Below, one piece after another: positions 2,235 through 40,428 of a stretch of DNA of 40,428 bases (position 1 is its first letter; the number at the start of each line of letters is the position of its first letter). Origin of the DNA: Coriobacteriia bacterium (GTDB taxonomy: Bacteria; Actinomycetota; Coriobacteriia; WRKU01; JAENWW01). Position numbers and translations under genes: made by a program. Below the pieces are notes generated by a model. The model made no database searches. It was given only the letters and a program-made list of their open reading frames with translations, and was not told where the DNA came from. The stretch covers positions 1-40,428 of the forward strand of contig JAENWW010000012.1 in NCBI GenBank assembly GCA_016649875.1. The letters are read 5' to 3'.

Positions 2235-2246
2235 ACAAAACTACCG

Positions 2247-3474: not shown

Positions 3475-3480
3475 TATAAT
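3475..3480 (+). promoter_or_regulatory. Predicted -10 box of the cmk operon
   Basis: A perfect TATAAT lies 98 bases before the cmk start, without a clear -35. It is placed to drive the long cmk-to-rib gene run. Confidence 0.5.
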
Positions 3481-3503
3481 AACAGGTGTAATTTGTCCAT
3501 TCG

Positions 3504-3557
3504 CGCTCGCTTACGGTGATGGTGCATAAGCGCCTTAACACTTATGCGAGCGTTTTT
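3504..3557 (+). terminator. Leader hairpin with T-run before cmk (terminator or attenuator)
   Basis: CGCTCGC (3504-3510) pairs with GCGAGCG (3546-3552), followed by TTTTT. A competing inner stem GCATAAG (3524-3530) with CTTATGC (3541-3547) shares two bases with the outer one, so the two folds are partly exclusive. It lies between the -10 box and cmk, so it may act as an attenuator rather than as a plain hisC terminator. Confidence 0.55.
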
Positions 3558-3577
3558 ATCGTCAGGGGAGTACGCTC

Positions 3578-4255
3578 TTGATTATCGCCATCGACGGCCC
3601 GGCAGGTTCAGGGAAATCCACGGTAGCCAAACAAGTCGCTTCGCGTCTTTTGTTCCACTATCTCGATACCGGTGCGATGTATCGTGCTTGCGCCTACCGC
3701 GCGCTCGAGCTCGGTATCGATTCGACGGATGAGGCGGCACTGGCCGCTCTAGCGAAACACGATTCGATAGAGTTCGGCTACGAAAAGGGCGAGGTTTTGC
3801 CTTCGCGTGTTTTTATCGCAGGGCAAGATGTCACTGATGCGATTCGCACTCCGCGGGTAGATGCGGCGGTAAGCCCTGTCTCGGCGTACCAGACCGTGCG
3901 TACGGCGCTTGTCGAACAACAGCGAGCGATTGCTGCGCAGGATGACTATGTGGTGGAAGGACGCGACATCGGTACGGCCGTTTTTCCCAACGCCGAGCTC
4001 AAAGTCTTCGTCACAGCCGAGCCGCAGGAGCGGGCCCGTCGCCGTGCCGAACAAAATCTCGAGCGCGGCATGGTCGGGGATTATGACAAAATCTACGAAG
4101 CGATTCTCGCACGGGACAAAGCCGACACCGAGCGAGAGGCATCTCCTCTCGAGGTCGCATGGGATGCCGTCACAATCGACACCACCAACCTCGACATCGA
4201 AGAAGTCATCGAGGCGATTGTCGTACTTGCGCGAAGAGAACAGGGCATATCCTAG
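3578..4255 (+). CDS. cmk: Cytidylate kinase
   Basis: Phosphorylates CMP and dCMP with ATP in pyrimidine nucleotide recycling. The 225-residue protein begins with the P-loop IDGPAGSGKSTVAK, followed by LDTGAMYRA near residue 30. It also has the NMP-binding segment with RTPRVDAAVSPVSA, the family signature VVEGRDIGTAVFPNAELKVF, and a lid region ERARRRAEQN. The start is TTG 3578, placed by the P-loop at the N-terminus and a GGGGAG binding site about 8 bases upstream. Its stop codon abuts the plsC start (TAG|ATG), so the two are probably translationally coupled. Pairing of cmk with plsC and ispH is common in Gram-positive genomes. Confidence 0.95.
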   Translation: MIIAIDGPAGSGKSTVAKQVASRLLFHYLDTGAMYRACAYRALELGIDSTDEAALAALAKHDSIEFGYEKGEVLPSRVFIAGQDVTDAIRTPRVDAAVSPVSAYQTVRTALVEQQRAIAAQDDYVVEGRDIGTAVFPNAELKVFVTAEPQERARRRAEQNLERGMVGDYDKIYEAILARDKADTEREASPLEVAWDAVTIDTTNLDIEEVIEAIVVLARREQGIS

Positions 4256-4948
4256 ATGAAACATGAAGAGCGTCGAGGAAAACTGTTCAAGGATGAAAGC
4301 ATATCGAACTGGTGGGGAATGTATTGGGCGAATATCCTCATCGCTAAGCCGGCACATAGGCTGTATCGCATAAAGCTCGTCGATGTTGAAAACGTGCCGC
4401 AAGGGGCGTGTATCATGGCCGGCAATCACGTAAGCTACATCGATCCGATCGCGTTATGGGCGGGTATGCCGCAAGGGACCATTCATTTCGTGGCGAAATC
4501 CGAGCTGTATCACAATAAAGTTCTGGCATGGCTTCTCGACAGTGTCGGATCGGTGCCGGTGGCGCGCGGAGCGGCCGATCGTGCGATGATCAAGTGGGCG
4601 AGTGATTGCCTCAAGGGCGGTGAGTCCGTCGCGATTTTCCCCGAGGGGACACGTGGCCGAGGGCGCGATGACTTGGGCGGGCTCAATAAAGGGCAAGACG
4701 GGGCGGCGTTTCTTTCGTTACGCACCGGAGCGCCTATCGTTCCCATAGGAATCGCCGGCACTGATAAGATAATGCCGAAAGGCTCGAAGATGGTTCATTT
4801 TCCCCAAGTGATTCTGAAATTCGGAAAGCCCCTCCATCCGTCCGACTTCGAGGGGTCTCGAAAAGATAAAATGGCTGCGATGACGACGGCAGTGATGAAA
4901 GATATAGCGTGGTTACGCGATGGTGCCCGTGCCTTGGAAAAGAAGTAG
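4256..4948 (+). CDS. plsC: 1-acyl-sn-glycerol-3-phosphate acyltransferase
   Basis: Adds the second acyl chain to lysophosphatidic acid, giving phosphatidic acid at the inner membrane face. The 230-residue protein has the PlsC catalytic HX4D box as NHVSYIDP (about residues 60-67), a VARG motif near 100, the glycerol-phosphate-binding block FPEGTRGRG near residue 125 and the VPIGIAG block near 162. The start directly follows the cmk stop. With plsY and gpsA downstream, the window supplies three of the steps from dihydroxyacetone phosphate to phosphatidic acid. plsX is not seen. Confidence 0.92.
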   Translation: MKHEERRGKLFKDESISNWWGMYWANILIAKPAHRLYRIKLVDVENVPQGACIMAGNHVSYIDPIALWAGMPQGTIHFVAKSELYHNKVLAWLLDSVGSVPVARGAADRAMIKWASDCLKGGESVAIFPEGTRGRGRDDLGGLNKGQDGAAFLSLRTGAPIVPIGIAGTDKIMPKGSKMVHFPQVILKFGKPLHPSDFEGSRKDKMAAMTTAVMKDIAWLRDGARALEKK

Positions 4949-4960
4949 AGAAGCGAACCC

Positions 4961-5797
4961 ATGAAAGTCTTGATTGCACAATATGCGGGAGTTTGTTACG
5001 GGGTGGAGCGCGCTTTGCGTTTTGCCGAGCAAGCTACGAAAGACTCAAATTCGGTGCACAGCCTCGGTCCTCTGATCCATAATCCGCAGGCGGTCGAGAG
5101 GCTACGTTCCATCGGCGTCGAAGTCGCGGAATCCGTCGATGAGATCGAAGAGGGAACCCTTGTCATCAGGAGCCACGGTGTGGCGCCCGAGGTCATCGCG
5201 GAAGCGAAAAAGCGCAATCTGAACGTCATCGACGCCACCTGTCCTCACGTGAGTAAAGCTCAAGAGGCGGCGGCATTGCTGGCCGAGCAAGGGTATAGAG
5301 TCGTCATCGTCGGTGAGGCCGACCACCCCGAGGTCGCCGGAATAAAGGCATATGCCGGGGATGAGGCGCTCGTCGTTTCGAGTCCGAAGGAAATTCCGGC
5401 TCGTATCGGCGGGCGGAAGGTCGGTGTCGTGGTTCAAACGACACAGCTTGAGGAAACGCTTGAAGAAGTCGTCGCCGAGTTGCTAGAAAAAGCCAGTGAG
5501 CTTCGCGTCTTCAACACGATTTGCAGTGCAACCTCGAAACGCCAGCAGGCGGCTCATGAAATCGCGCAACAGGTGGATGTCGTGGTGGTCGTCGGCGGGC
5601 ATAACTCCGGAAATACGACGCGCCTTGCAGAAATCTGCCGGAGCGTCAACCCGCGCACCTATCACGTGGAAACCGCTGACGAGCTCGAACCGGAATGGTT
5701 CACCGGTGCAAAAATCGCCGGTGTCACGGCGGGTACCTCAACGCCGGATGAGCAAATGCGCGGTGTGATCCATGTTCTTGAAGGGATGAATACTTAG
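4961..5797 (+). CDS. ispH: 4-hydroxy-3-methylbut-2-enyl diphosphate reductase
   Basis: The last enzyme of the MEP isoprenoid pathway, an Fe-S reductase forming IPP and DMAPP. The 278 residues are full length for a stand-alone IspH. The three cluster cysteines are visible in GVCYGVERAL (C12), IDATCPHV and NTICSATSKRQ. HPEVAGIK matches the conserved HPE block. The family motif usually read NSSNTxRL appears here as NSGNTTRL, a mild variant. Twelve bases separate it from plsC, and the next gene begins at the base after its stop. Assignment is confident. Confidence 0.95.
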   Translation: MKVLIAQYAGVCYGVERALRFAEQATKDSNSVHSLGPLIHNPQAVERLRSIGVEVAESVDEIEEGTLVIRSHGVAPEVIAEAKKRNLNVIDATCPHVSKAQEAAALLAEQGYRVVIVGEADHPEVAGIKAYAGDEALVVSSPKEIPARIGGRKVGVVVQTTQLEETLEEVVAELLEKASELRVFNTICSATSKRQQAAHEIAQQVDVVVVVGGHNSGNTTRLAEICRSVNPRTYHVETADELEPEWFTGAKIAGVTAGTSTPDEQMRGVIHVLEGMNT

Positions 5798-7204
5798 ATG
5801 GGCATCGAAACGGATAACTCATTGCTACCTACTGATAATTCGGACCGTTACGAGCGCTCGGAAGGGCGGCCCGGAGCCGTGCTGAAGACGGTTGCTCCCG
5901 GTTCTCCGGCAGATGAGGCCGGACTTGTTCCGGGGGAGCGAATCGTGCGTATCGAGGGCGAAGAATTGAGAGATATCATCGACTGGATGTGGTATGCCGA
6001 TGATACGGAAGCCGAAATCGATGTTGAAGATAGCGGCAAAACGGTGCGCGAGGTGACACTTTCTCGCGACCTGGGGCAAGATTGGGGTATCGAGTTCGAG
6101 GATATTTTATTCGACGGCATCCGCCGGTGCCACAACGCTTGTACCTTTTGCTTTATGAACCAACTTCCGCAAGGGATGAGAGACTCACTTTACCTCAAAG
6201 ACGACGACTTTCGGCTTTCGTTTTTACAGGGTAATTTCGTCACCTTGACAAACCTGTCGGATGCCGATGTCGACCGTATCGTCGAGCAGCATATTTCTCC
6301 TCTATACGTTTCGCTTCACGCATCGAATCCGCAGGTGCGAGAGACGCTCATCGGTAAAAACGCCCAGCGTGGGCTCGATAATTTCGTGGTGCTTGCAAAA
6401 GCCGGCATCGATATGAACGTGCAAATCGTACTCGTTCCCGAGGTAAACGACGGTGCGATTCTCGATGAGACGCTTCGATGGCTCAAAACATTTAAAGATC
6501 ATGTGCCGAGCGTGGGAATCGTGCCGGTCGCTTATACGAACCAAACAAAGGAAATCGCAGGTCGTGAACCGAAGAGTTATAACTCTCAGCTTGCCGCGGC
6601 GCGCGTCATCGAACAAGTGCAGCATTACCAGTTCGAGGAACGGGCCGAGCGTGAGACCACGTGGGTCTATTTGGCCGATGAATTCTACATCTATGCTCAG
6701 GCTCCGTTCCCGAAGTCGGAATGGTACGATGAATTTCCGCAATATGAAAACGGAATCGGTATCGTGTGGTCGTTCGTCGATGAAATCAAAGAAAACCTCG
6801 CTCGCTATCAAGTCGCGGTGGGAAAGATCGGATTGGGCTCGGATGCGGCGACGGTGGTTGTCGGTGAACTTGCTTCTGAGACTCTGATCGGTGCGCTCAG
6901 CGCTCTCGATGCAGGCGGTCGCGTGCGTCTCCTCCCGGTGAGAAACTACTTTTTCGGGGGCAATGTATCGGTGACGGGGCTGTTGACCGGCATCGATTTG
7001 GTCACCACGATCCGTTATGACAGCGATCGCCTGGAACGTCCGACCACCTATCTTATTCCCGACATCATTCTCAACGCCTGCGGGCTGACGCTCGATGGGT
7101 ATACGCCGGAACAAATTCGAGAAGATTGCGGCGCGAATATCGTCTTTCATGAAACGACAGTCGAGGCGCTCATCGAGTGCTTTGCAAATCTTAAGGAGCA
7201 ATAA
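5798..7204 (+). CDS. DUF512 radical-SAM protein with N-terminal PDZ-like domain
   Basis: A 468-residue protein of the DUF512 family. The N-terminal 70 residues form a PDZ-like module (VAPGSPADEAGLVPGE). The radical-SAM-type cluster motif CHNACTFC (CX3CX2C) lies near residue 110, followed by FMNQLPQGMR and a partial TIM-barrel core (VSLHASNPQVRE), then the DUF512 C-terminal domain. The family's reaction is unknown. In many Gram-positive genomes it lies next to der, as here, where the stop overlaps the der start by one base (TAATG). This suggests a role linked to ribosome or RNA biology, but that is inference. Confidence 0.85.
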   Translation: MGIETDNSLLPTDNSDRYERSEGRPGAVLKTVAPGSPADEAGLVPGERIVRIEGEELRDIIDWMWYADDTEAEIDVEDSGKTVREVTLSRDLGQDWGIEFEDILFDGIRRCHNACTFCFMNQLPQGMRDSLYLKDDDFRLSFLQGNFVTLTNLSDADVDRIVEQHISPLYVSLHASNPQVRETLIGKNAQRGLDNFVVLAKAGIDMNVQIVLVPEVNDGAILDETLRWLKTFKDHVPSVGIVPVAYTNQTKEIAGREPKSYNSQLAAARVIEQVQHYQFEERAERETTWVYLADEFYIYAQAPFPKSEWYDEFPQYENGIGIVWSFVDEIKENLARYQVAVGKIGLGSDAATVVVGELASETLIGALSALDAGGRVRLLPVRNYFFGGNVSVTGLLTGIDLVTTIRYDSDRLERPTTYLIPDIILNACGLTLDGYTPEQIREDCGANIVFHETTVEALIECFANLKEQ

Positions 7205-8514
7205 TGCCAACATTGCCAATCGTTGCCGTAGTGGGACGACCAAACGTCGGCAAGTCGACTTTCGTCAACAGGATCGCTCAAACGGAAGATGCGATCGTGC
7301 ACCGTTCGCGGGGAGTGACACGCGATCGCAGCTATCACACCGCCGAATGGTGCGGAAAGCACTTCATGCTCATCGACACGGGCGGTATCGAGATGGCCGA
7401 AGACGACGCTTTTCAGATATCGATTCGCGCCCAAGCCACGGTGGCGACGCGTGAGGCGGATATCATCATCTTTCTCGTCGACGGAAGGGTCGGTGTGACA
7501 GCTGATGATGAATCCGTCGCCCGTATGCTGAAGCGTTCGAACAAACCGATTTTTTTAGTGGTCAACAAAGTCGACACTCCGGGCTCTGAAAAGGAGACCT
7601 TTGAATTTTGGAACCTCGGCCTCGGCACACCCTATCCGATTTCATCGACGCACGGTAACGGGACGGGAGATCTGCTCGATGAGATCGTCAAAGATCTTCC
7701 CGATGCAGAAATGCTTGAAGATGACGGTGCGATTTCGGTTGCAGTCATCGGCCGCCCGAATGCGGGGAAGTCTTCACTGGCCAATAAACTCACCGGCGTG
7801 GATCGCTCGATCGTCTCCGACGTGGCGGGAACGACGCGCGATGCCGTTGACACGACCGTCGTTCATAACGACATCCTCTATCGTTTCGTCGACACGGCAG
7901 GCCTTCGCAGAAAGGGCGCCATAGACGAGGACATCGAATATTATGGATTCGTCCGTGCCATGCGTGCCATCGACCGCTGCGATGTCGCGTTGCTCGTTCT
8001 CGATTCGACGATAGGCTTGACCGACCAAGACCAACGGGTGGCGAGTTTTGCGGCCGACAGAGGCTGCGCCATCATCATCGTGATGAACAAGTGGGACTTG
8101 ATGAAAGATGAAGAGGAGCGCGAGAGTTTTATCGCCCATGTCGAGGACAGACTCGGTTTCATCGGGTGGGCTCCGGTCGTTCGCGTAAGTGCTTTGACCG
8201 GCAAGAACGCCGTGAAAATATTCGACCACATCGACGTGGTATATGAAAACTTCTCACAAAGTATCTCGACGAGCAGTCTCAACAAGCTTCTGACCGAGAT
8301 TCGCGATTTCGGGCACACGGTCAACAAGTACGGTAAGTCGCTTCGTATGAATTACGTCACACAGACGCATAAGTCTCCTCCGGGATTCACCTTTTTTGCC
8401 AATTTTCCCAATCTCGTCGATGAAAACTACAAGCGCTATATCGAAAATCGCATGAGAAAGCAATTCGGTTTTTCCGGCACGCCGATATACCTCAAGTTTA
8501 AGAAGAAAGATTAG
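7204..8514 (+). CDS. der: Ribosome biogenesis GTPase Der (EngA)
   Basis: A tandem-GTPase assembly factor of the large ribosomal subunit. The 436 residues hold two complete G domains. The first has GRPNVGKST, DTGGIE and NKVD; the second, from about residue 178, has GRPNAGKSS, DTAGLRRKG and NKWD. A C-terminal KH-like domain begins around residue 350 (NYVTQTHKSPPGFTFFANFP). The one-base overlap with the preceding gene and AAGGAG at 7193-7198 support the start. Assignment is unambiguous. Confidence 0.97.
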   Translation: MPTLPIVAVVGRPNVGKSTFVNRIAQTEDAIVHRSRGVTRDRSYHTAEWCGKHFMLIDTGGIEMAEDDAFQISIRAQATVATREADIIIFLVDGRVGVTADDESVARMLKRSNKPIFLVVNKVDTPGSEKETFEFWNLGLGTPYPISSTHGNGTGDLLDEIVKDLPDAEMLEDDGAISVAVIGRPNAGKSSLANKLTGVDRSIVSDVAGTTRDAVDTTVVHNDILYRFVDTAGLRRKGAIDEDIEYYGFVRAMRAIDRCDVALLVLDSTIGLTDQDQRVASFAADRGCAIIIVMNKWDLMKDEEERESFIAHVEDRLGFIGWAPVVRVSALTGKNAVKIFDHIDVVYENFSQSISTSSLNKLLTEIRDFGHTVNKYGKSLRMNYVTQTHKSPPGFTFFANFPNLVDENYKRYIENRMRKQFGFSGTPIYLKFKKKD

Positions 8515-8527
8515 AGGAGGGGACGCT

Positions 8528-9178
8528 GTGATCTTTTATCGATTCGTCGCCGCCTGTGTGGCCGGCTATTTGCTGGGTGCGATTCCCTTTTCGTTGGTTA
8601 TCGGTAAAACGTTTTTCAAAATCGATCTTCGACGGTTCGGCTCGGGCAGTCTCGGAACAACCAACACGTTGCGTGTTTTGGGCGGTCGAGCCGCTCTCGC
8701 GGTGCTGCTGTTGGATGCGCTCAAAGGGACATGCGCCGTGTGGGTCGCTTGGCTGCTGGTTCCCACGTCCGTTTTCGGTGCATCGACTCACAGTTGGGCG
8801 TTGGTCGTCGGTACGTTCGCCGCGATTTTCGGACACGCATTCTCACCCTATATCGACTTTAAAGGTGGCAAGGGGGTGGCAACGACCGCCGGAGCGGTAC
8901 TTGCGATGCAACCCATCGTCGCTTGCATCCTCATCGTCCTTTTTATCATTATCGTGTATTCCACGCGTTATGTTTCCGTCGCATCTATGGTCGTCGCGAC
9001 GTTATATCCTATAATGGTACTTGTGTTTTACCGTGAGTTGCCGTTCATCTTGTTCGCGTTTATCGCCGCGATATTGATAATTTGGCTCCATCGCGCTAAC
9101 ATCGTTCGCCTCATAGCAGGCGAAGAATCGAAGATTTCTATTAAACACCGGGGCTCGCAGTCTCGCGGCGACCACTGA
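8528..9178 (+). CDS. plsY: Glycerol-3-phosphate acyltransferase PlsY
   Basis: An integral membrane enzyme that transfers an acyl group from acyl-phosphate to the sn-1 position of glycerol-3-phosphate. The three PlsY motifs are visible: GSGSLGTTNTLRVLG near residue 38, GHAFSPYIDFKGGKGVATT near 100-120, and a C-terminal block with IIWLHRANIVRLIAGEE. Hydrophobic segments fit the usual five-helix topology. The GTG start at 8528 follows AGGAGGGG. It stands between der and gpsA, whose product feeds it glycerol-3-phosphate. The basic C-terminal tail after residue 200 is slightly longer than usual. Confidence 0.95.
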   Translation: MIFYRFVAACVAGYLLGAIPFSLVIGKTFFKIDLRRFGSGSLGTTNTLRVLGGRAALAVLLLDALKGTCAVWVAWLLVPTSVFGASTHSWALVVGTFAAIFGHAFSPYIDFKGGKGVATTAGAVLAMQPIVACILIVLFIIIVYSTRYVSVASMVVATLYPIMVLVFYRELPFILFAFIAAILIIWLHRANIVRLIAGEESKISIKHRGSQSRGDH

Positions 9179-9194
9179 TTCGGGAGGCATTTCA

Positions 9195-10187
9195 ATGCAG
9201 GTTGCAGTTATAGGTGCCGGTTCATGGGGCACAGCAGTCGCGTGGTTACTCGACGGCAAGGGTATCGATGTTCGAGTTTGGGCGCGTGAGCCCGAAATCG
9301 CCGAACGCATAAATACCGATCACCATAACCCCGTGTATCTTCCCAAAGTCGAGTTTTCCGATCGGGTCATCTCCTCATCGGACATGCGGTATGTTTTGGA
9401 CGGCGTCCAAGCAGCGGTCTTGGTCACTCCTTCGGTAGGGGTTCGTTCGACCGCAGAACTCATGGCCCCGTATCTGGGAGCGGATGTGCCCGTCGTCGTT
9501 TTGAGCAAGGGCATCGAAATGGGCTCGTCGAAATTGATGACCGAGGTTTTGGAGGAAGTGCTCGGCAATCCGAAACGCCTTGCCGGTCTTTCGGGGCCCA
9601 ACCATGCAGAAGAGGTCAGCCATGCGGTTCCTTCCGCAACGGTCGTCGCTTCGAAAAATCCTCAGACCGCCGAGTTTTTTCAAAAGCTGTTCTCGACACC
9701 TTTTTTCCGGGTGTATACAAGTGACGATATCGTCGGTGTGGAGATGTGCGGAGCGGGCAAAAACATCATCGCCATCGCCTGCGGTTTGTGCGACGGACTA
9801 AGCCTCGGTGACAACACGAAAGCGACGTTGATGACGCGCGGTTTAGCCGAATTGTCCCGCTTGGGAATCACGGTGGGGGCCAACCCTTTGACCTACATGG
9901 GACTCGCGGGAATGGGCGACTTGATAGTGACGTGCACTTCCAAGCATTCGCGCAACAGGGCTCTCGGTGAGCTTGTCGCACGCGGCGGGTCGCTCGATGA
10001 ATATCAAGAGCGAACGAAAATGGTCGTCGAGGGTGCCGTGGCATGCAAGGCGATTCGTGAACTCGCTCACGAAAAAGGTATCGAAATGCCCGTGACGAAC
10101 ATGGTTTACCAGATTTTGTACGAAGGACATTCACCCATCGAAGCCGGCGAGTGCTTGATGGAGCGCCCGCTACGCGAGGAGCGATGA
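9195..10187 (+). CDS. gpsA: NAD(P)-dependent glycerol-3-phosphate dehydrogenase
   Basis: Reduces dihydroxyacetone phosphate to sn-glycerol-3-phosphate for phospholipid synthesis. The Rossmann signature is VIGAGSWGTAVAW at the N-terminus. Other markers are LSKGIEM near residue 103, LSGPNHAEEV near 133, the catalytic lysine region CGAGKNIIAIACG near 188 and GMGDLIVTCTSKHSRNR near 243-260. Length (330) is standard. The start follows a GGGAGG site, 16 bases after plsY. The end overlaps the beginning of the rpe region (ATGA), suggesting coupling. Confidence 0.96.
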   Translation: MQVAVIGAGSWGTAVAWLLDGKGIDVRVWAREPEIAERINTDHHNPVYLPKVEFSDRVISSSDMRYVLDGVQAAVLVTPSVGVRSTAELMAPYLGADVPVVVLSKGIEMGSSKLMTEVLEEVLGNPKRLAGLSGPNHAEEVSHAVPSATVVASKNPQTAEFFQKLFSTPFFRVYTSDDIVGVEMCGAGKNIIAIACGLCDGLSLGDNTKATLMTRGLAELSRLGITVGANPLTYMGLAGMGDLIVTCTSKHSRNRALGELVARGGSLDEYQERTKMVVEGAVACKAIRELAHEKGIEMPVTNMVYQILYEGHSPIEAGECLMERPLREER

Positions 10188-10189
10188 AC

Positions 10190-10897
10190 ATGAGTTCGAA
10201 TTCGGTGTTTTCGACGAAAGAACCCGGGCATCTGTTTATTTCGCCGTCACTTTTATCTGCCGACTTCACGGCACTGGGGGCGGCGGCGCAGTTGGTGGAA
10301 CGCGCCGGTGCCGATATGATCCACATCGATGTGATGGATGGACACTTCGTGCCGAATCTCACCTTCGGCCCTCCCGTGATCAAAGCGCTGAAAAAAGTGA
10401 CTTCGTTGCCGCTCGATGTGCATCTCATGATTGAAAACACCGACGAAACCTTAGGGTGGTACCTCGATGCCGGTGCCGATCTCATCACCGTACATGTGGA
10501 GAGTTGCGTTCACTTGCATCGGGTGATTTCACGCATCAAGGAATCGGGCGCCGCAGCCGGTGTATCTCTCAATCCGGGGACACCTCTGTGCACCGTGAAG
10601 CCGGTTCTGGCCGATGTCGACATGGTATTGCTGATGAGCGTCGACCCCGGTTTCGGCGGTCAGTCTTTCCTCGAGGGTACCGTCGGACGCATCGAAGGCC
10701 TTCGCGGTCTGTGCCTCGAAGAGCACGTTTCACCCGTCATACAGATCGACGGTGGAATCAATACCTCGACGGTGGTGAAAGTCGCCCGTGCCGGTGCCAC
10801 CTGTTTTGTCGCCGGCAATGCGATCTTCGGTGCTTCCGACGCGCAAGCCGCTGTCGGCGAAATTCGCGACGCGGCATATCGCGCGTTTTTAATGTAG
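10190..10897 (+). CDS. rpe: Ribulose-phosphate 3-epimerase
   Basis: Interconverts ribulose-5-phosphate and xylulose-5-phosphate in the pentose phosphate pathway; ribulose-5-phosphate is also the substrate of RibB downstream. The (beta/alpha)8 motifs are SPSLLSADF, HIDVMDGHFVPNLTFGP, VHLMI, MSVDPGFGGQSF and QIDGGIN. An ATG at 10190 has the better spacing (8 bases) to AGGAG at 10177-10181. A second in-frame ATG at 10184 overlaps the gpsA stop as ATGA and would add two residues. The N-terminal 15 residues before FISPSLL are longer than in many homologues. Confidence 0.93.
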   Translation: MSSNSVFSTKEPGHLFISPSLLSADFTALGAAAQLVERAGADMIHIDVMDGHFVPNLTFGPPVIKALKKVTSLPLDVHLMIENTDETLGWYLDAGADLITVHVESCVHLHRVISRIKESGAAAGVSLNPGTPLCTVKPVLADVDMVLLMSVDPGFGGQSFLEGTVGRIEGLRGLCLEEHVSPVIQIDGGINTSTVVKVARAGATCFVAGNAIFGASDAQAAVGEIRDAAYRAFLM

Positions 10898-22893: not shown

Positions 22894-22904
22894 CTTCTTA
22901 AAGG

Positions 22905-23251
22905 TTGAGTAAGCCGATAAGCGGGGTTCTGTCGTGAACGACTATTTATCTGGGACGCGCGTCGCCACGCGCCTCAAGCGAACATACCCGTGTGCCGACC
23001 GGGTCGGTCTTAATCACACCTATTTGCTCTTGCTCCGAGTGGGGTTTACCAAGCCGCCTCATTGCTGAGACGCTGGTGCGCTCTTACCGCACCGTTTCAG
23101 CTTTTCTCCGCGTTTGAAGGCGGGGAGTTTTCTTTTCTGTGGCACTGATCCATCGCGTCGCCGCGCCCTGCATCTAACAGGCACTCTACCCTGTGGAGCC
23201 CCGACTTTCCTCACTTGCACGAGTGCAAGCGCAGCCGTTTAGCTTACTCAA
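22905..23251 (-). ncRNA. rnpB: RNase P RNA, bacterial class A
   Basis: This is the catalytic RNA that matures tRNA 5' ends, about 347 nt. Read on the minus strand it starts and ends with complementary P1 strands (TTGAGTAAGC at 23251 and GCTTACTCAA at 22905). Conserved blocks appear in order: GAGGAAAGTC, AGTGCCACAGAAA, GGTGCGGTAAGAGCGCACC and, near the 3' end, AGATAAATAGTCGTTCACGA followed by CAGAACCC and GCTTAT. The ends are placed by P1 and may be off by a few bases. Confidence 0.95.
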
Positions 23252-31590: not shown

Positions 31591-31709
31591 CGTGCGATCC
31601 CCCTTAGGATACAAGGAAGATATTAGCAGATATCACGGGTAATCGATGAGGTTAGACAATCAATCGAGATCATTCAATTTACAGCGTGATCGTCAACTTA
31701 ACCGCAAAG

Positions 31710-31786
31710 AAAAAGGTCGGAGCTGATTAAAGCTCAGACCTGCATGTTTGTTGGTACCCCGCACGGGATTCGAACCCGTGATCTCC
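31710..31786 (-). other. tRNA 3' end plus terminator, copy A (att-like remnant)
   Basis: Minus strand: 31751-31786 is the 3' part of a tRNA with T-arm ACGGG/CCCGT, loop TTCGAAT, acceptor 3' strand and ACCA end. It is followed by a hairpin with T run (AGGTC-GAGCT pairing AGCTC-GACCT). No 5' half follows at 31787 and beyond. The same block recurs at 33602-33677. This pattern is left when elements integrate into tRNA 3' ends. Confidence 0.8.
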
Positions 31787-32077
31787 ACAATTTTTTATGT
31801 TCAGAACTTTTTAAGATTACTATATTTCTATTTTGATACGTCTGGAATGCAACAAGATGATATTTACTTTTTACTAGCTATGACTCGCTTTTGGCCACAT
31901 TTCGTAGAAAATATTCACAAAATCCCGTGTGAACTGAATACTCATAATATTGCTTCTTGAATACGCCTAAAGTTAGATGCATGGCATTTTATGCCGCTTC
32001 ATGCTCAATAATCCGTGTCATAGGACAGGGACGTTAGATATTCCCTCATGGGTAAACTCGCTCAATTAAACAAATAT

Positions 32078-32106
32078 TTGCATTAATTGTGTGTAATGAT
32101 TATCTT
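32078..32106 (+). promoter_or_regulatory. Predicted promoter of the RelA/SpoT-domain gene
   Basis: TTGCAT (32078-32083) and TATCTT (32101-32106) are spaced by 17 bases, 44 bases before the start codon. The preceding 31787-32077 is AT-rich and shows only a short palindrome (GGCATTTTATGCC), no gene. Confidence 0.5.
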
Positions 32107-32149
32107 AATAGCACAATCTACAAAGAACTTTATTGATAGGTAAGGCTTT

Positions 32150-33175
32150 ATGACTTTTTCCAAACCGAAATATAAAAGAAACGAAGTCAGGAGATGCGGG
32201 AAAATTCTTGCAAGTGAAAATGGGCTCGATAATAAATATGCATTAGATGTCGCAGACAACTGGCGCTCTTCGCATCTTCAACCCGTAAAAACTTTTCTTC
32301 AAATGCTCCAACGTGAATCTTTGAAAATTACCGACGACTCAACATCGGTGTTCAGGCTCAAGAGATTGCCCTCAATTGTTGATAAGCTTGGTCGACTAAA
32401 GAGTCATGACCTGGCTTCTATGCAAGATATTGGTGGATGTCGGACGGTACTAGATAAGGTCTCTGACTTATATCGTTTGCGCAATGCCATTCGGAAATCT
32501 GAAATGAAGCACAAGTTTATTCGTGAATACGATTACATTATTACTCCAAAACCATCTGGATATCGAGGTATCCACTTGATCTATAAGTACTACAGCGATA
32601 AAAACGATTACTACAATGGATTGAATGTGGAGATTCAGATTCGTACTAAACGCCAGCATGCATGGGCCACATGTGTTGAGGTAGCTGGCGATTATTTGAG
32701 TCATTCTTTTAAGTCAAGCCAGGGGCCGGAGGAGTGGCTAAACTTTTTTAAATTGGCAAGTTCCGCCATAGCTATTCTTGAGAAATCGCCAACGGTGGTC
32801 GGTACGCCAAATTCCAAACAAGCCCTAAAACAAGAATTGCGAACTAGTTATGAAGAACTAAAGGTTAAGGAAACTCTTCGGCGGATAAAACGTTCGCACT
32901 CGGAAATTAACAAGATGAATGTTAAAGCGAAAAACAAATACTTTTTGGTTGATTTTAATGAACAAACTAAAAACGTCTCAATTACGTCTTATAGGGAGAA
33001 GGATATAGAATCACTAACCAAGGACTATTTAAGAAAAGAAGAGGAGTACAAATATACCTTGCACAATGTCGTGGTGGTATCGGGAAACTCAATTGAGTCT
33101 CTGCGGTATGCATATGGTAACTATTTTGCGGATGTTGATACATTTCTGAGAATGATGGACAGATTCATAAAATAG
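32150..33175 (+). CDS. RelA/SpoT-domain protein (stand-alone nucleotide pyrophosphokinase-like)
   Basis: 341 residues. The synthetase-type nucleotidyltransferase domain spans about 40-190, with MQDIGGCRTVL (D93, R98), YDYIITPKPSGYRGIHLIY and the catalytic VEIQIRTKRQHAWATCVE. No HD hydrolase, TGS or ACT domain is present, so it is neither housekeeping Rel nor RelQ/RelP. The C-terminal 130 residues (YFLVDF..., then a tail ending SLRYAYGNYFADVDTF) belong to a subgroup often met in defense islands. Relatives in the toxic small alarmone synthetase groups make (p)ppApp or pyrophosphorylate tRNA during phage defense. Which activity applies here cannot be told. AT-rich codons and flanking tRNA-end repeats mark it as acquired. 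Confidence 0.85.
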   Translation: MTFSKPKYKRNEVRRCGKILASENGLDNKYALDVADNWRSSHLQPVKTFLQMLQRESLKITDDSTSVFRLKRLPSIVDKLGRLKSHDLASMQDIGGCRTVLDKVSDLYRLRNAIRKSEMKHKFIREYDYIITPKPSGYRGIHLIYKYYSDKNDYYNGLNVEIQIRTKRQHAWATCVEVAGDYLSHSFKSSQGPEEWLNFFKLASSAIAILEKSPTVVGTPNSKQALKQELRTSYEELKVKETLRRIKRSHSEINKMNVKAKNKYFLVDFNEQTKNVSITSYREKDIESLTKDYLRKEEEYKYTLHNVVVVSGNSIESLRYAYGNYFADVDTFLRMMDRFIK

Positions 33176-33246
33176 AGTCCTGTGGTCTACGCGTCGGATT
33201 GTAAGGTCTGTGTTAGTTGTTAGTCTAGGTGTCCATAGTCTAATTT

Positions 33247-33372
33247 TTACCAACTTGCATGTACAACATCCGGACCGAGTCACCCATCATTTTCTTGCGA
33301 TTCAAGCACATGAGCACACCTAATCTGCCATGCGAGTTCGCGCACTTCATTTTTAAGCTATAGACATTGCCC
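33247..33372 (-). pseudogene. Tail fragment A of a putative replication gene
   Basis: Reading the minus strand with small frame repairs gives a C-terminal peptide containing YSLKNEVRELAWQI and ending LGPDVVHASW before a stop. It aligns throughout with the better-preserved tail at 35761-36008. Internal frame breaks show it is dead. Identity as a rolling-circle-type Rep is a guess from the better copy. Confidence 0.65.
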
Positions 33373-33572
33373 CATCTGGTTTCAATTTGGTATTCAGCAA
33401 CTATGAGGACAACATAATCGGCACGCCTAACTTACGACAAGAAATCATCAAACCTGCATTAAAAAAGGCTGGTTTACCTCGGACAAGAATTCATGATTTT
33501 GAACACCCATGCTCGATACCCATAAGGGTGTTGGAATATGGTCGGACGTCGCAATATTTAGATAAACTTTAA
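33363..33572 (+). pseudogene. Tyrosine recombinase (integrase) remnant
   Basis: The plus frame reads NLVFSNYEDNIIGTPNLR, then PALKKAGLPRTRIHDFEH, the core of the phage-integrase catalytic domain. In active enzymes the second part reads HDLRH; here the catalytic Arg is replaced by Glu and the rest of the domain (second His and the Tyr) is missing or altered. It lies about 55 bases before tRNA-end copy B, where an integrase normally sits relative to its attachment site. It is inactive. About 60 residues survive. Confidence 0.75.
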
Positions 33573-33578
33573 TATTCT

Positions 33579-33827
33579 GCTTACAAATGGAGAAGTCAGC
33601 AATAAAGGTAGAGCGCAATAACGCCCTGACCTGCATGTTTGTTGGTGCCCTGTACGGGATTCGTACCCGTGATCTCCGTCTTGAGAGTATCCTCGAAGCA
33701 ATTATTGCTAGTTCCATTTTAGTCCATTTTATTGCCTGTGAGCTGTGGTTTTATAGTTTCTTCATTCCAGCTCGTTTTTGCTCAATATAGGTACTTTTGG
33801 CTAGTTTCGCTTACAAAATGCTTACAA
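33579..33827 (+). repeat. GCTTACAA direct repeats flanking tRNA-end copy B
   Basis: GCTTACAAA occurs at 33579-33587 and 33809-33817, and GCTTACAA at 33820-33827, the last two one helical turn apart. They straddle the attachment-like block and may be integrase arm-type binding sites. Apart from copy B the stretch 33573-33913 holds no gene. Confidence 0.45.
33602..33677 (-). other. tRNA 3' end plus terminator, copy B (att-like remnant)
   Basis: 46 of 50 bases (33628-33677) match copy A at 31737-31786, and the adjoining terminator stem is recognisable though degenerate. The T loop is mutated (TACGAAT) and the acceptor strand differs, so it is older or derived from a different tRNA allele. Copies A and B are direct repeats about 1.9 kb apart. 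Confidence 0.8.
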
Positions 33828-33913: not shown

Positions 33914-35707
33914 ATGGACACGAAAATTAGAGACCAAATTCTTGAGGACATTAGAGCAATTCAAGGCGATTATTTGAGTTCAATACCTAACTTGAAATCA
34001 GATGATTATGCGTTTAACTTTTGGGTTCTTACAAAGTTGTACTGTATAGATGAGGAAATCGCGATCTCCTATATCACAGACAACTCAGATCGAGGAATTG
34101 ATTGTTGGGTGTATTTTGAAGAAGCAAAAGAACTTTATTTAATCCAAAATAAATTTTATACTACCGCAGCTCTCTCAAGGGGAGCGGTTATTGATGAATT
34201 TTTATCAAGACCACTTGAGCATTTAAGACTTGGCTCCTATACAAGATCAAAGGATCTACAAGATATCTTCACAAAATTTATGGTCGATACAGAATTTAAA
34301 ATTCATTTAGTGGTGTATACAACTCAAGACAAGGAAGATACCGCGCTCAAAAATGAAATAGATACTTGGTCGTATGATCAAGAGGGCATAAAAGCATACA
34401 TTGACGCTAAGATGTACCAATTGGATGACATCAAAGAAACGTATTACGGAGAGCAGTATTCTGATGTCATAAATTTTGAATGCGAAATAGCAACCACCAA
34501 TCAAGGTACTTTGCTTAATATTGATCCGGAGCATTACTCGCTTCCGAACCTTATTAAGGCAAGATACATCTTGACTTCAGTTACAAATTTATTTGAGATT
34601 GTTAAAAAAGCTGAAAAGAAAAATTATCAATTGTTTGAAGAAAATATTCGAGAATATCTTGGCAACAAAGGTGTAAACAATAAAATCATTGCAACACTAA
34701 GGGATCCCAAAGAGAGAGGTAATTTCTTTTTCTACAATAATGGAATTACTATAATTTGCGAAAGTTTTGTAAATGGTAAAAACAAGGCTGCCACAAAAAT
34801 ATTTAATCCTCAAATTGTTAATGGGTGTCAGACGGTAAATTCGATTTTCGATGTGATTAGCAAGGTTCCTGCTGGGGAAATGTCGGACTTTGATAATACT
34901 TATGTGATGGTAAAAGTGCTGCAAGTTGATAAAGAAAATAATAAATCGCTATATTTGGATATTGTTCTATATAACAACAGCCAGAACGCCATCAAAGAAA
35001 AGGACTTTGCTGCAAATCATAAGGTATTCAACAGTTTAAAGAACCATATGGAAGATCGCGGTTTTGCGTTGTATGTAAAACAGAGTGATGAGTATAAATA
35101 CAAAAATAATAAGGCGCTTCAGGCGCAAATGAGAAAACCAGCTGCAAATTATTTTGAATACATTGGGCTAGAAGATTTTAATACTGCCCAAATGGGCATA
35201 AGATTGGAAAAATTATTGCAGGTTCTCATGGCGTTTCAGTTTGGTGGATATGAAGCATTTACAAAAAAGAATACACTTTTGAAAAGAGATTCAAAATATT
35301 ATAACGAGCTTTTGGAAATGATTAGCAACGTAGATTATAGCGTTGATCAAATAATTAAACTCTATTTGTTGTTCCTGTATGCAGAATTACAAAAAAAGGG
35401 AAGTGAAGACAACAGAACCCCTATTCCTTATTATGTCTTGGATTTTATCGGCAAAGATTATCGAGATTCTGCGAATCAATATCTTTTGTTTGAAAAGGAT
35501 TCAGCTATGGTGATTTATAATTTTTATAAGTCAGTTGCCAACCAGTACAGAAGACAGATTGAAAATTCAGGGACAGACTACAACAAAATGATTAAGCAGC
35601 CGATAAGGGAAGACGTTTTGAACGGTGCGATATTGGGAAAACTAGATGATCTGGAATCTGAACAGCGTGGCATAATAAAAAGATTCAGGACAACAGTTTT
35701 CGAATAG
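33914..35707 (+). CDS. AIPR-family abortive phage infection protein
   Basis: 597 residues. The N-terminal domain carries a restriction-endonuclease-like motif set, SDRGIDCWVYF (D63) followed 15 residues later by LIQNKF (Q78, K80), as in PD-(D/E)XK nucleases. The AIPR core lies around residues 270-400 with FFFYNNGITII, NPQIVNGCQTVNSIF and YNNSQNAIKEKDF. AIPR proteins occur alone or with restriction-modification genes and block phage growth; the mechanism is mostly unknown. It is AT-rich with its own terminator 30 bases downstream, so it is a solitary transcription unit. It lies just outside the tRNA-end repeat pair. Confidence 0.9.
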   Translation: MDTKIRDQILEDIRAIQGDYLSSIPNLKSDDYAFNFWVLTKLYCIDEEIAISYITDNSDRGIDCWVYFEEAKELYLIQNKFYTTAALSRGAVIDEFLSRPLEHLRLGSYTRSKDLQDIFTKFMVDTEFKIHLVVYTTQDKEDTALKNEIDTWSYDQEGIKAYIDAKMYQLDDIKETYYGEQYSDVINFECEIATTNQGTLLNIDPEHYSLPNLIKARYILTSVTNLFEIVKKAEKKNYQLFEENIREYLGNKGVNNKIIATLRDPKERGNFFFYNNGITIICESFVNGKNKAATKIFNPQIVNGCQTVNSIFDVISKVPAGEMSDFDNTYVMVKVLQVDKENNKSLYLDIVLYNNSQNAIKEKDFAANHKVFNSLKNHMEDRGFALYVKQSDEYKYKNNKALQAQMRKPAANYFEYIGLEDFNTAQMGIRLEKLLQVLMAFQFGGYEAFTKKNTLLKRDSKYYNELLEMISNVDYSVDQIIKLYLLFLYAELQKKGSEDNRTPIPYYVLDFIGKDYRDSANQYLLFEKDSAMVIYNFYKSVANQYRRQIENSGTDYNKMIKQPIREDVLNGAILGKLDDLESEQRGIIKRFRTTVFE

Positions 35708-35735: not shown

Positions 35736-35764
35736 GTAGGGGCAAATTATTGCCCCTACTTTAC
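35736..35764 (+). terminator. Terminator after the AIPR gene
   Basis: GTAGGGGCAA pairs perfectly with TTGCCCCTAC around ATTA, followed by TTT. It ends exactly where replication-tail fragment B begins on the other strand. Confidence 0.8.
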
Positions 35765-36008
35765 CAACTGACCCATAAGACTTCCGGGCCCAACCAATCG
35801 TCGTTTTCATTTGAATCAAACGTATAGGCATCGCCAATTTGCCATATGAGGTTTCTCACTTCATCAAGGCTGAACGCATTGCCATGTTTCACTTCTACAT
35901 GAATCTTGCGCGAGCACAGATAGCGTTTACGGTTCTTGAAGCGTTCATCGCTATCAAAGGTCTTGCCGATATACTTGCTGGCGTAGGCAGCTCCTGAGCG
36001 TGTTTTTG
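35761..36008 (-). pseudogene. Tail fragment B of a putative rolling-circle replication gene
   Basis: The minus strand reads through about 82 codons without interruption, with ASKYIGKTFDSDERF, RKRYLCSRKI and SLDEVRNLIWQIGDAYTF, ending GPEVLWVSW-stop. The pattern KYIGK...RYLCSRKI recalls the C-terminal part of plasmid or phage rolling-circle replication initiators. There is no start: upstream (36009 on) the sequence switches to an IS end. It is the best preserved of three homologous tails (33247, 35761 and 37163). Confidence 0.6.
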
Positions 36009-36009
36009 G

Positions 36010-36091
36010 TAGATTAGAAGTACCGCAGTTCGGAAGCTAAGAATTCCAGCGGTGGAAGACAAAAAATGATCCATTGCCGAGCACCTCAAGT
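36010..36091. repeat. 82-bp repeat, inverted copy of 38951-39032
   Basis: About 76 of 82 bases match the reverse complement of 38951-39032, including the run around CAGCGGTGGAAGAC. The right copy lies directly upstream of an IS21-like istA start, so both are probably left ends of the same IS type. This copy is a solo end inserted into the replication gene fragment. Confidence 0.85.
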
Positions 36092-36174
36092 TGATGAAAG
36101 GCTTTGCGAAGTGGCTCTTCAAGGCGACGTTTCGCTGGAATAAAGCAGCCCTTGCAAACCTTGCTAATGGCCTA

Positions 36175-36240
36175 TATACTGTCACTAATGATTTGTTTCT
36201 TAACATTTTTGATAACTATCATTAAGGATACGACAGTATA
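36175..36240 (+). promoter_or_regulatory. Promoter and palindromic operator of the AbiEi-like gene
   Basis: TATACTGTC (36175-36183) and GACAGTATA (36232-36240) are perfect inverted arms. Inside them ACTAATGAT (36184-36192) faces ATCATTAAG (36218-36226). Between the arms, TTGTTT (36194-36199) and TATCAT (36217-36222) are spaced by 17 bases as a promoter. The last arm ends one base before the start codon. AbiEi antitoxins are known to repress their operon through inverted repeats, so autoregulation is likely. Confidence 0.75.
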
Positions 36241-36241
36241 C

Positions 36242-37009
36242 ATGAAGTTTCGAGAATACATAGAGACGCATCACGTCTTCACTTCTACGGTCCTGACCGA
36301 CGTGTGCGGGAATGCGGCCAGCGTGAAGACCGCGCTCTCCCGCGCCGTAGCCGACGGCAAGGTGTTCAAGGTGCGAAACGGTCTCTACGTATCGGATACA
36401 GGGCGTTTCGTCGGAGTAGCCGCAAACCCGTATGCGGTCGCCGCCGCGTTCGCCCCCGACGCCCTGTTCTCCTACCATTCCGCGCTCGAACTACACGGCC
36501 TCGCCCATTCGGTATCCAGAAGAGTGCAGTTCTGCTCGGGTTCCAGCCGCCTTTCCTTCTCATTTCACGGAACCGACTTCGAGCGATACCCAACGCGTGA
36601 CAAGGCAACCACCGACACGGTACGTGCAGACTCTTTCGGTTCGGTCTCGGTCACATCGCGCGAGCAGACCTTCATCGACTGCATGGCTCATATGCGGCTG
36701 TGCAGTGGGGCCGAAGAGGTCCTGCACAGCTTGGCTGGGTTGCCGTATCTCGACCTGAAGATTCTTTCCGGACTATTGGAAGAACAGCCGACATCGGTGG
36801 TGGCACGTGCAGGCTGGTACCTTGAGGCCAACGCCGAGCGCTGGAGCGTGACGGTCGACTACCTCGAAGCGCTTCACGGATCCCTACCGGCCAAAGCCAG
36901 CTACTATCTGGATTCCACCTCGCGCAAACAGGCGCAGACCTTTGCGGCACGCTGGAAGCTCAACCTGCCCGTCTCCTTATCGGAGCTCGAATCATGGATG
37001 GAGTTATAA
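36242..37009 (+). CDS. AbiEi-like antitoxin / winged-helix regulator
   Basis: 255 residues. The N-terminal 55 residues form the AbiEi antitoxin winged helix (TSTVLTDVCGNAASVKTALSRA, then KVFKVRNGLYV). The remainder matches the AbiEi C-terminal domain (FSYHSALELHGLAHS near 83, SREQTFIDCMAHM near 140, and the conserved RAGWYLE). ATG 36242 is fixed by the operator that ends beside it. In type IV AbiE systems the nucleotidyltransferase toxin AbiEii follows directly. Here only a 32-codon ORF follows, so the antitoxin looks orphaned. It is more GC-rich than its neighbours, suggesting a separate origin. Confidence 0.82.
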   Translation: MKFREYIETHHVFTSTVLTDVCGNAASVKTALSRAVADGKVFKVRNGLYVSDTGRFVGVAANPYAVAAAFAPDALFSYHSALELHGLAHSVSRRVQFCSGSSRLSFSFHGTDFERYPTRDKATTDTVRADSFGSVSVTSREQTFIDCMAHMRLCSGAEEVLHSLAGLPYLDLKILSGLLEEQPTSVVARAGWYLEANAERWSVTVDYLEALHGSLPAKASYYLDSTSRKQAQTFAARWKLNLPVSLSELESWMEL

Positions 37010-37011
37010 CC

Positions 37012-37110
37012 ATGAGCATATCAAAATTCAAGATGCTGAACCTTTTGAAGTACAAATTAATGGTTATAAACAATTCGGTTGCTGACATGCTGGTGAGTAA
37101 TCATTCATAA
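37012..37110 (+). pseudogene. Possible toxin-start remnant after AbiEi
   Basis: An ORF of 32 codons begins two bases after the antitoxin stop (MSISKFKMLNLLKYKLM...) and ends early. Position and spacing are where AbiEii normally starts, but the sequence is too short to identify. It may be a truncated toxin or chance. Confidence 0.3.
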
Positions 37111-37123
37111 AGCGATGATTAAG

Positions 37124-37156
37124 AAGGGGAGGCATTTCGCCCCCCCCCTTTTTTTT
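37124..37156 (+). terminator. Terminator after the AbiEi region
   Basis: AAGGGGAGGC pairs with GCCCCCCCCTT-type sequence and runs into eight or more T residues. It precedes replication-tail fragment C. Confidence 0.8.
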
Positions 37157-37162
37157 CTGTTA

Positions 37163-37201
37163 TTACCAACTAGCCCATAAGACATCCGGCCCCAACCATT
37201 C
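37163..37201 (-). pseudogene. Tail fragment C of the putative replication gene
   Basis: Thirteen codons on the minus strand read EWLGPDVLWASW-stop, matching the ends of fragments A and B. As with fragment B, a plus-strand terminator lies directly to its left. Confidence 0.6.
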
Positions 37202-37232
37202 GGTTGAAACAAGATTTATCGCGAGAAGCCGC

Positions 37233-38950: not shown

Positions 38951-39032
38951 AGTTGGGGTGCTCGGCAATGGATCATTTTTTGTCTTCCACCGCTGGAATT
39001 TTCAACTTCCGAACTGCGGTACTTCTAATCTA
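38951..39032. repeat. 82-bp repeat, inverted copy of 36010-36091
   Basis: This is the region between the istA start and the junction with the thiC fragment, so it is most likely the terminal leader of the IS. See the matching entry at 36010. Confidence 0.85.
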
Positions 39033-39039
39033 TCGAAAA

Positions 39040-39210
39040 CAACTTGACTGGGAAGCACAGTGGGAGTGCGCGATAGACCCAGAAACGGCGAAATCAATTC
39101 GCGCTGACAGGAAGCCTGAGCATGAAGACACCTGCTTCATGTGTGGAAAGTTCTGCGCAATAAGAAGTATGAATAAAGCACTTGCAGGTGAGCATATTGA
39201 TATTTTGTAG
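39040..39210 (+). pseudogene. thiC: 3' fragment of thiC
   Basis: 56 codons encode the C-terminus of phosphomethylpyrimidine synthase: LDWEAQWECAIDPETAKSIR, then CFMCGKFCAIRSMNKAL with the CX2CX4C cluster motif typical of ThiC, to a TAG. The rest of the gene was lost at the IS boundary at about 39033, so this copy cannot make the enzyme. Confidence 0.88.
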
Positions 39211-39237
39211 GTGAGAATTTGAGTTCTTTTAATCTAA

Positions 39238-39544
39238 GGGGGGGGTAATTTCCCGCCCCTTGGGGCAAAAAGAGGATGTGGTATACTGAAAAAATGGCCG
39301 AGCATATAGATAAAAGCCATAACAAAACACTTCTGTTGTACCATATGGTATTTCTTGTAAAGTACAGGCGATAAGTATTTATACCGGAAGTAGAAGAGAC
39401 TCTGAAAGAGATTTGTGTTGGAATAGAACAACGATAGGATATCCGATTTGTAGGGCTTGAGGAAAATCAAGTGCTCATGCTCGTACAAGGGAACCCAATC
39501 GAATTGGATTTATGGATTTGATACCCCGTTGCTTGCGGCGGGGT
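39238..39544 (+). mobile_element. Decayed IS200/IS605-type element
   Basis: A left-end-like hairpin (GCCCC/GGGGC, about 39255-39266) follows a G8 tract. A TnpA-like frame starts at ATG 39294 (MAEHIDKSHNKTLLLYHMVF, LVKYRR) and is broken by in-frame stops at 39372 and later, with VFIPEVEETLKEI and [13 protein letters not shown] still readable. A right-end hairpin ACCCCGTTGC/GCGGCGGGGT lies at 39523-39544. About half of tnpA is missing and the catalytic Tyr is not found, so it is dead. Confidence 0.8.
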
Positions 39545-39673
39545 TCTTCATATGATGTTCTGAATTCTGTAAAGAGAATTTGGTGCAAATCAAGCACCTG
39601 CTTGTCCAATAACACTAGCCTATCAACTCGTTGTTTTATATTTGGATTACAAGCAGTGCAAGGAGTTTTTTTT

Positions 39674-40428
39674 ATGGCATTTTCCGCAGCACAACAGCAG
39701 ATAGCAGACAGGTTCGATTCCGATGTAGACCAGAAGCGCTGGCATGACTGGAAGTGGCAGGTACGCCACTGCATCAAAGATGTCGAGACCTTTGAGAAGT
39801 TGCTGGATGTACACTTTGATGATGCCAAGCGTAAGGACATCGAGACAACCATCAGCAAGTTCCCCATGTCCATTACCCCATACTTCCTCTCCCTTATGCA
39901 GACCGAATCTTTGGAGAATGACCCGATCTTCAAGCAGAGTTTTCCTTCTGTCCGAGAATTGGACGTCCTTGAGTGCGATATGGCAGACCCTCTGCATGAA
40001 GATGTGGACAGTCCTGTCCCAGGTCTGACCCATCGCTATCCTGACCGTGTCCTCCTTCTCGTAAGCAATACCTGTGCCATGTACTGCAGGCACTGCACTA
40101 GAAAGCGAAAAGTAGGGGATGTGGACAGCATTCCTGATAGGGAGCAGATCAAGGTAGGAATCCAGTACATAGCAGACCATCCGGTTGTCCGTGATGTCCT
40201 GCTGTCAGGGGGAGATCCCTTCATGCTCAGCGACGAGTACCTTGACTGGATCCTTACCGAACTGAGGAAGATCGACCATGTGGAGATTATCCGAATCGGA
40301 ACCAGGATCCCTGCAGTGCTCCCTTACCGAGTCACTGACGAGTTGGTTGCCATGCTCAAGAAGCATCATCCCCTCTGGTTGAACACACAGTTCAACCATC
40401 CTCGGGAATTGACCAGTTCCTCCAAGAA
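39674..40428 (+). CDS. kamA: Lysine 2,3-aminomutase, N-terminal part
   Basis: The frame runs open from ATG 39674 to the window end (251 complete codons). The protein is a radical-SAM, PLP-dependent mutase that converts L-lysine to beta-lysine, in lysine fermentation or osmolyte synthesis. The cluster motif CAMYCRHC (C134, C138, C141) is followed by RKRKVGD, the SAM-binding [10 protein letters not shown], and [13 protein letters not shown]. The N-terminus ([12 protein letters not shown]) and ITPYFLSLM are typical of KamA, and [15 protein letters not shown] precedes the cluster. The PLP lysine lies beyond the window. ATG follows AAGGAG with 8 bases between. The 130 bases upstream contain only a small hairpin (GGTGC/GCACC). 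Confidence 0.92.

Follow-up and report, generated by a model that had tools for sequence, protein, structure and literature searches.

Actinobacterial integrative and conjugative elements (AICEs) integrate into tRNA genes and carry an integrase together with a Rep replication module. Among the tRNA-targeted islands of Islander, tandem arrays are known, and the islands show a tyrosine integrase, a crossover in the anticodon loop and a displaced 3′ tRNA fragment (PMC4383910). CapRelSJ46 of Salmonella phage SJ46 (PDB 7ZTB, 9ERV) is a tRNA pyrophosphokinase encoded as a single ORF on a mobile element with no separate antitoxin, and its key residues are R79, R116, Y155, Y352 and Y355 (PMC9712102). 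The window analysed is the complete contig C12 (40,428 bp) of a 1.41-Mb genome in 24 contigs, and we read part of it as a decayed, approximately 5-kb integrative element of tRNA-Glu, joined to others by serial insertion and carrying a CapRel-type fused toxin-antitoxin as cargo (probability about 0.8). It shares with the Islander islands the displaced tRNA fragments, the tyrosine integrase, the anticodon-loop crossover and the tandem arrangement. In contrast to those islands, the integrases have decayed and the array is split by an assembly gap, and the distance of 1.9 kb between its two repeat copies, A and B, is below the 2-kb length filter of Islander (PMC4383910). The features are listed below, with positions in the window unless another contig is named.

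22902–23250, minus strand: rnpB, the syntenic anchor (Rfam RF00010, 283 bits; synteny).
31706–31786, minus strand: copy A, the 3′ end of tRNA-Glu, displaced and starting at tRNA position 43, with its terminator, read as attR of the capRel element (97.5% identical over 81 nt to the tRNA-Glu(CTC)/terminator on contig C11; 31710–31786 in the original prediction).
31889–31922, minus strand: degraded right-arm site, integrase-binding-like, inward of copy A (28/33 identities to the right-arm site of the sister element).
32150–33175, plus strand: capRel-like gene (P0001) encoding 341 aa, with a toxSYNTH domain and, C-terminally, a pseudo-zinc-finger/YXXY domain (phmmer, PADLOC, AlphaFold/Foldseek, key residues).
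33250–33351, minus strand: C-terminal remnant of an HUH Rep with one internal TGA (amino acids 53–56% identical to those at the end of the Rep family).
33366–33572, plus strand: tyrosine integrase remnant, HxxR changed to HxxE (44% identity to the intact sister integrase; translation).
33579–33588, minus strand: left-arm core ATTTGTAAGC, flanked by the integrase stub and copy B (exact match, placed as beside the sister attL).
33602–33687, minus strand: copy B (repeat 33602/33604–33677), the part of tRNA-Glu that runs from its anticodon loop to its 3′ end, with the terminator, read as the junction of the capRel-element attL and the AIPR-element attR (86% identical over 85 nt to the C11 tRNA-Glu/terminator).
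33702–33827, minus strand: right end of a neighbouring sister element, with an exact double arm site at 33808–33827 (103 of 126 positions shared with the C9 element at its right end).
33914–35707, plus strand: AIPR-family abortive-infection-type gene, 597 aa (Pfam AIPR 2.7e-39; PADLOC AbiU 5e-31; phrog_1841 1.8e-40).
35760–36000, minus strand: what remains of the Rep C-terminus in the AIPR element (DNA 93% identical to that of the intact C9 Rep).
37020–37202: third sister remnant, a DUF2283-protein end at 37020–37079 (plus strand) and a Rep tail at 37163–37202 (minus strand) (tblastx/blastn to C9 9610–9669 and 9551–9589).
Contig C9, L050 (G000:C9:26000-45000), 5336–10874: intact sister element, 5.4 kb, in tRNA-Met, between two perfect 101-bp att repeats.

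Copies A and B both have the tRNA sense on the minus strand and are direct repeats, as the original prediction had stated, with 4 mismatches in the 50-nt core (31737–31786 compared to 33628–33677; 46/50 identical). By BLAST the two are 84% identical over 75 nt with an E value of 4e-15, so their likeness is not due to chance. The tRNA 5′ half was absent from both, also in agreement with that prediction, and ARAGORN found only a tRNA-His in the window. When the genome was searched for the parental tRNA that had been postulated, a third, complete copy was found, a tRNA-Glu(CTC) with the same terminator (C11:46865–46941), approximately 2.5 kb from the end of contig C11. A and B are displaced att sites within a tandem island array, the intact tRNA of which is on a different contig, and hence neither has a 5′ half; the earlier picture of a lone island ended by two fragments has to be given up. 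Because copy A is 97.5% and copy B only 86% identical to the present tRNA, attP may have differed from attB initially. Both the stretch from rnpB to the contig end and the terminal part of C11 were searched for more degraded att copies, and none was clearly above shuffled sequences.

Partial tRNA-Glu matches in G003, G010 and contig C76 of G011 were considered as further att scars and rejected, as ARAGORN identified them as intact tRNA-Glu(TTC) genes; of those genomes only G011 holds a true tRNA-Glu fragment, on its contig C4, 8.4 kb from its tRNA-Glu. There, in a genome of the same order, a satellite-like island of 8.4 kb (L037, G011:C4:10500-22500, 1904–10392) uses the same tRNA-Glu(CTC), which is therefore a recurrent target, and has an integrase adjoining and facing the tRNA and a displaced fragment at the far end. 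In contrast to the elements described here, it carries a primase-helicase and an excisionase-like gene and no HUH Rep, and its cargo is unrelated.

The position of the array was obtained from the one genome of the same family that was found (G001). In G001, metK, gltX, tRNA-Gln, tRNA-Glu, a terminator, two short genes and rnpB follow one another on a single contig. Here, metK, gltX and both tRNAs are on C11, and rnpB and its next neighbour are on C12 (22902–23250 and 22384–22851, respectively). Because G001 has both flanks on a single contig, gene order indicates that C11 and C12 most likely border a single assembly gap with their right ends; since the junction of C11 and C12 is an assembly gap, the array itself is deduced from synteny. 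The distance from tRNA-Glu to rnpB is approximately 1 kb in G001 compared to at least 19 kb here. No island is present between them in G001, and this absence, together with the parental tRNA, supports the predicted tRNA-targeted integrative island with a dead integrase. Copy B is closer than copy A to the tRNA, in line with the expectation for serial insertion. The outer flank of copy A is also missing from that place in G001, so that G001 does not display the precise empty joint, and is therefore only possibly original chromosome; this stretch (23.3–31.7 kb, from rnpB to copy A) contains a sigma/anti-sigma pair, a DsbD-cupredoxin protein, a metal ATPase and a DUF5652 gene, the last of which was not found in 30 relatives. 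The GC content across 31–36 kb falls to 34–45%, from mostly 47–58%. On C11, no arm site was recognised past the tRNA-Glu terminator. Directly 3′ of the intact tRNA-Glu are a DUF5674 gene and a 110-aa gene (L004, G000:C11:37000-49428, 10127–10797), and past these two, where the contig ends, lie a Rep remnant and a TnpB gene.

The sister element was found by searching the same genome with the Rep fragment. Its 101-bp repeats span the target tRNA-Met (L050:5336–5412) from the anticodon loop through the terminator. Next to the tRNA comes a PIN_8 gene, then an intact tyrosine integrase that points towards the tRNA, then an HTH regulator and the HUH Rep (PF23343); adjoining the far repeat are three small genes, in order a DUF2283-like one, an unknown one and a DUF3467 one. 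TTGTAAGCNNTTTGTAAGCG is present at both inner ends, compared to a chance expectation of 0.01 times in 19 kb, and probably represents the integrase arm sites. PADLOC made no defence call on the element. In contrast to AICEs, there is no Tra DNA-translocation gene in the intact 5.4 kb, and the HUH Rep takes the place of the primase-helicase module of P4-like satellites.

Compared to this sister piece by piece, the interval between A and B contains a left-arm motif, an integrase stub, a Rep tail, the cargo and a degraded right-arm site. What had been called a replication tail was confirmed as the last 34 or so residues of an HUH Rep and matches the end of the sister Rep. The integrase stub (33366–33515) aligns with residues 255–304 of the sister integrase (E 2.5e-6, 44% identity) and reads HDFEH compared to HDLRH in the sister, so the catalytic motif has decayed as claimed; no Pfam match was obtained for it. 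It adjoins copy B; in the sister, the tyrosine integrase is intact. None of 200 shuffles scored as high as the degraded right-arm site near copy A, whose distance from att is similar to that in the sister, and the match to ATTTGTAAGC at the left arm is weak alone (6/200 shuffles as good). Since the stub, the Rep tail and the arm sites match the sister, the comparison indicates that A to B is one decayed element and that 33687 onward is another.

The right end of that second element contains the exact double arm site at 33808–33827, of which 0.02 would be expected by chance. Its AIPR gene is intact and occupies the same slot as capRel, between the Rep tail and attR. The original prediction had described a single cargo kept intact amid decay; the capRel frame is indeed intact, and the neighbouring AIPR gene is intact as well, so capRel is not the sole survivor. 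The third remnant and a fourth Rep piece on C11 show that the site was used repeatedly. At 36000, the AIPR element has its Rep gene cut by a 2.9-kb block between 89-bp inverted repeats (36001–36089 and 38953–39041, 93% complementary). The block contains an AbiEi-like gene (36104–37009), for which no AbiEii partner was seen, a ferredoxin-like gene and a DUF302 gene. From 39041 to 40428, a thiC C-terminal fragment (approximately 39041–39210) and a broken IS200-type transposase start (approximately 39290) were seen by eye, and then a kamA (lysine 2,3-aminomutase) gene truncated by the contig end, the remainder of which was not found on other contigs of the genome.

The RelA/SpoT-domain gene predicted between the copies was recognised by Pfam (PF04607, E 4e-19). 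By phmmer its product matched 7ZTB/9ERV (CapRelSJ46) with an E value of 8e-45 over residues 7–340; ordinary small alarmone synthetases aligned with residues 36–186 only. The PADLOC model PDC-S33 scored 366 bits for the 341-aa protein and 290 bits for CapRelSJ46 itself. R79, R116, Y155, Y352 and Y355 of CapRelSJ46 correspond to R69, R98, Y138, Y322 and Y325, respectively. R69, R98, Y138 and Y325 were invariant in 53 aligned sequences and Y322 was kept in 49; Y138 is the G-loop tyrosine, and the YXXY motif reads Y322-G-N-Y325. No cysteine occurs after residue 175, and the C-terminal domain, in the same ORF, is without zinc cysteines. An AlphaFold model built from the aligned sequences (pLDDT 87.8) had strands and helices in the expected C-terminal region, and its three best PDB matches by Foldseek were CapRel chains (7ZTB/9ERV; E down to 1e-22, TM 0.70). 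The rmsd between model and CapRel was 12 Å over both domains, which a different hinge angle would fit. A separate antitoxin gene was not found: there was no plausible ORF in 31790–32150, and the integrase and Rep stubs lie downstream. Taken together, sequence, profile, structure model and key residues identify the protein as a full-length CapRel-type fused toxin-antitoxin. The predicted toxSAS-type cargo thus stands as a full-length CapRel relative, and the accompanying claim that it lacks a regulatory domain does not, as the alignment over residues 7–340 includes the pseudo-zinc-finger antitoxin/sensor domain and the YXXY motif.

The likeness to CapRelSJ46 extends to domain order, the single ORF and the location on a mobile element. 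The two proteins differ in that they are approximately 32–34% identical, the one here being 32 residues shorter, mainly in the linker and pseudo-zinc-finger regions, and in that the carrier is a decayed small integrative element here and a phage for CapRelSJ46. L280 and L307, two positions at which CapRelSJ46 contacts the capsid, are in gaps of the alignment; the phage trigger may therefore well differ.

Relatives of the protein form a common family, with at least 577, archaea included, in an alignment-based scan of GTDB species genomes; a single-sequence scan of genome contigs with query-specific peptide patterns returned none. No full-length relative was found in 13 other genomes of the same order, so it is no core gene of this locus, a possibility that had been raised against the island. 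In the tree, the protein falls among fused CapRels of many phyla, apart from its class relatives L007 and L008, and because of this position the gene was probably acquired horizontally. The three full-length class relatives found (L007–L009) share the catalytic and YXXY motifs and, for L007 and L008, which were tested, PDC-S33. They are 29–32% identical to the protein, belong to a separate clade and lie in other genomic places, and in contrast to the capRel gene, which has no Panacea neighbour, each has a separate SocA/Panacea-like gene alongside (called by Pfam for L007 and by resemblance for L008 and L009).

By homology with CapRelSJ46, the protein is most likely a phage-triggered tRNA pyrophosphokinase. 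The C-terminal pseudo-zinc-finger domain would hold the N-terminal enzyme off, with the YXXY segment plugging the ATP site; binding of a phage protein to the C-terminal domain would free the enzyme, which would then pyrophosphorylate tRNA 3′ ends, so that translation stops and infection is aborted. As for its carrier, the element now at 31706–33687, originally approximately 5 kb, would have entered tRNA-Glu(CTC) at its anticodon loop by tyrosine recombination, so that the tRNA was restored and its old 3′ end and terminator were displaced as copy A. Later, an AIPR-carrying element of the same family would have entered the same tRNA and pushed the tRNA-side end of the first element outwards, so that copy B would be where the two elements meet. 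The integrase, regulator and Rep of the capRel element are now stubs or lost, and the cargo between Rep and attR is intact.

Three other readings were weighed. One, which is unlikely, accepts the island but takes the protein for a relic, dead or drifting, that descends from CapRel and no longer functions in this host. The carrier has decayed, as a relic would suggest, and the nearest relatives of the protein are only approximately 41–42% identical, too distant for dN/dS; yet 341 codons are open, and R69, R98, Y138, Y322 and Y325, which cover catalysis and autoinhibition, are all kept. The intact frame alone is weak evidence against a relic, and selection acting on the capRel gene is plausible. 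That the protein is a toxSAS making a nucleotide alarmone, (p)ppGpp or (pp)pApp, instead of modifying tRNA is quite unlikely. All of these enzymes have the catalytic domain in common, but the match over the full length is to CapRel structures only, small alarmone synthetases matching the catalytic part alone, and the PADLOC model that detects the protein also covers CapRelSJ46, for which the tRNA activity was shown (PMC9712102).

The remaining alternative concerns the island itself, with A and B as duplications by other rearrangements and the Rel gene arriving separately, for instance via nearby transposons. To the right of 36000, the inverted repeats and the thiC and transposase scraps make rearrangement clear; however, the arm sites, integrase stub and Rep tail are in the order, orientation and spacing of the intact sister, and no transposon end was seen between A and B. 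This alternative is largely refuted and must be considered very improbable.

The Rep/integrase element was rare in the collections searched, with any match in 4 of 400 class genomes, one of them marginal. The one clear relative outside this genome, G131, has the same int-HTH-Rep order and a Rep 47–48% identical, and one distant relative, G087, lies next to tRNA-Ile and has a serine recombinase. At the search sensitivity applied, neither Rep nor its tail was found in phage, plasmid or IMG/VR collections, and the literature covered, which included few subscription papers, held no clear match to an element of this kind. The carrier family is possibly undescribed and, given no match in those collections, may represent a type of defence carrier that has been overlooked. 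The G131 module, from another family of the class, is at approximately 4020–9458 of L056 (G131:C48); beside it are a REase_II-like restriction-enzyme gene (PADLOC 6.6e-11) and two genes that by eye resemble a HicB/SecB-type pair.

A broader proposal, which we hold tentatively and at somewhat less than even odds, is that these are members of an undescribed family of approximately 5-kb elements of tRNA anticodon loops that ferry mostly defence genes in fixed slots at the att ends, and that their accretion builds a defence island. Such elements would consist of a tyrosine integrase, an HTH regulator, an HUH Rep and paired arm sites, with tRNA-Glu and tRNA-Met as targets. Their swappable cargo would include capRel, AIPR, PIN-domain and small DUF2283/DUF3467 genes and, in G131, the restriction enzyme and the HicB/SecB-like genes. 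Insertion into one tRNA gene would be repeated, and the oldest elements would decay down to their cargo. An intact element and decayed, cargo-keeping sisters in one genome would provide a concrete route to defence islands, in which small elements are serially inserted in one tRNA gene and their mobility genes are then lost. The CapRel copy, as a divergent homologue with a different sensing surface, would be useful in the search for new phage triggers.

Two further observations were made in this genome. Near the start of contig C2 (L151, G000:C2:1-6000, 183–2549), an Abi-like gene and RhuM-like genes, recognised by eye, and a tyrosine-integrase fragment beside them are possibly another decayed island. 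In the window, a perfect 45-bp direct repeat (1424–1468 and 1966–2010, 542 bp apart) occurs shortly before the tRNA-His (2158–2234).
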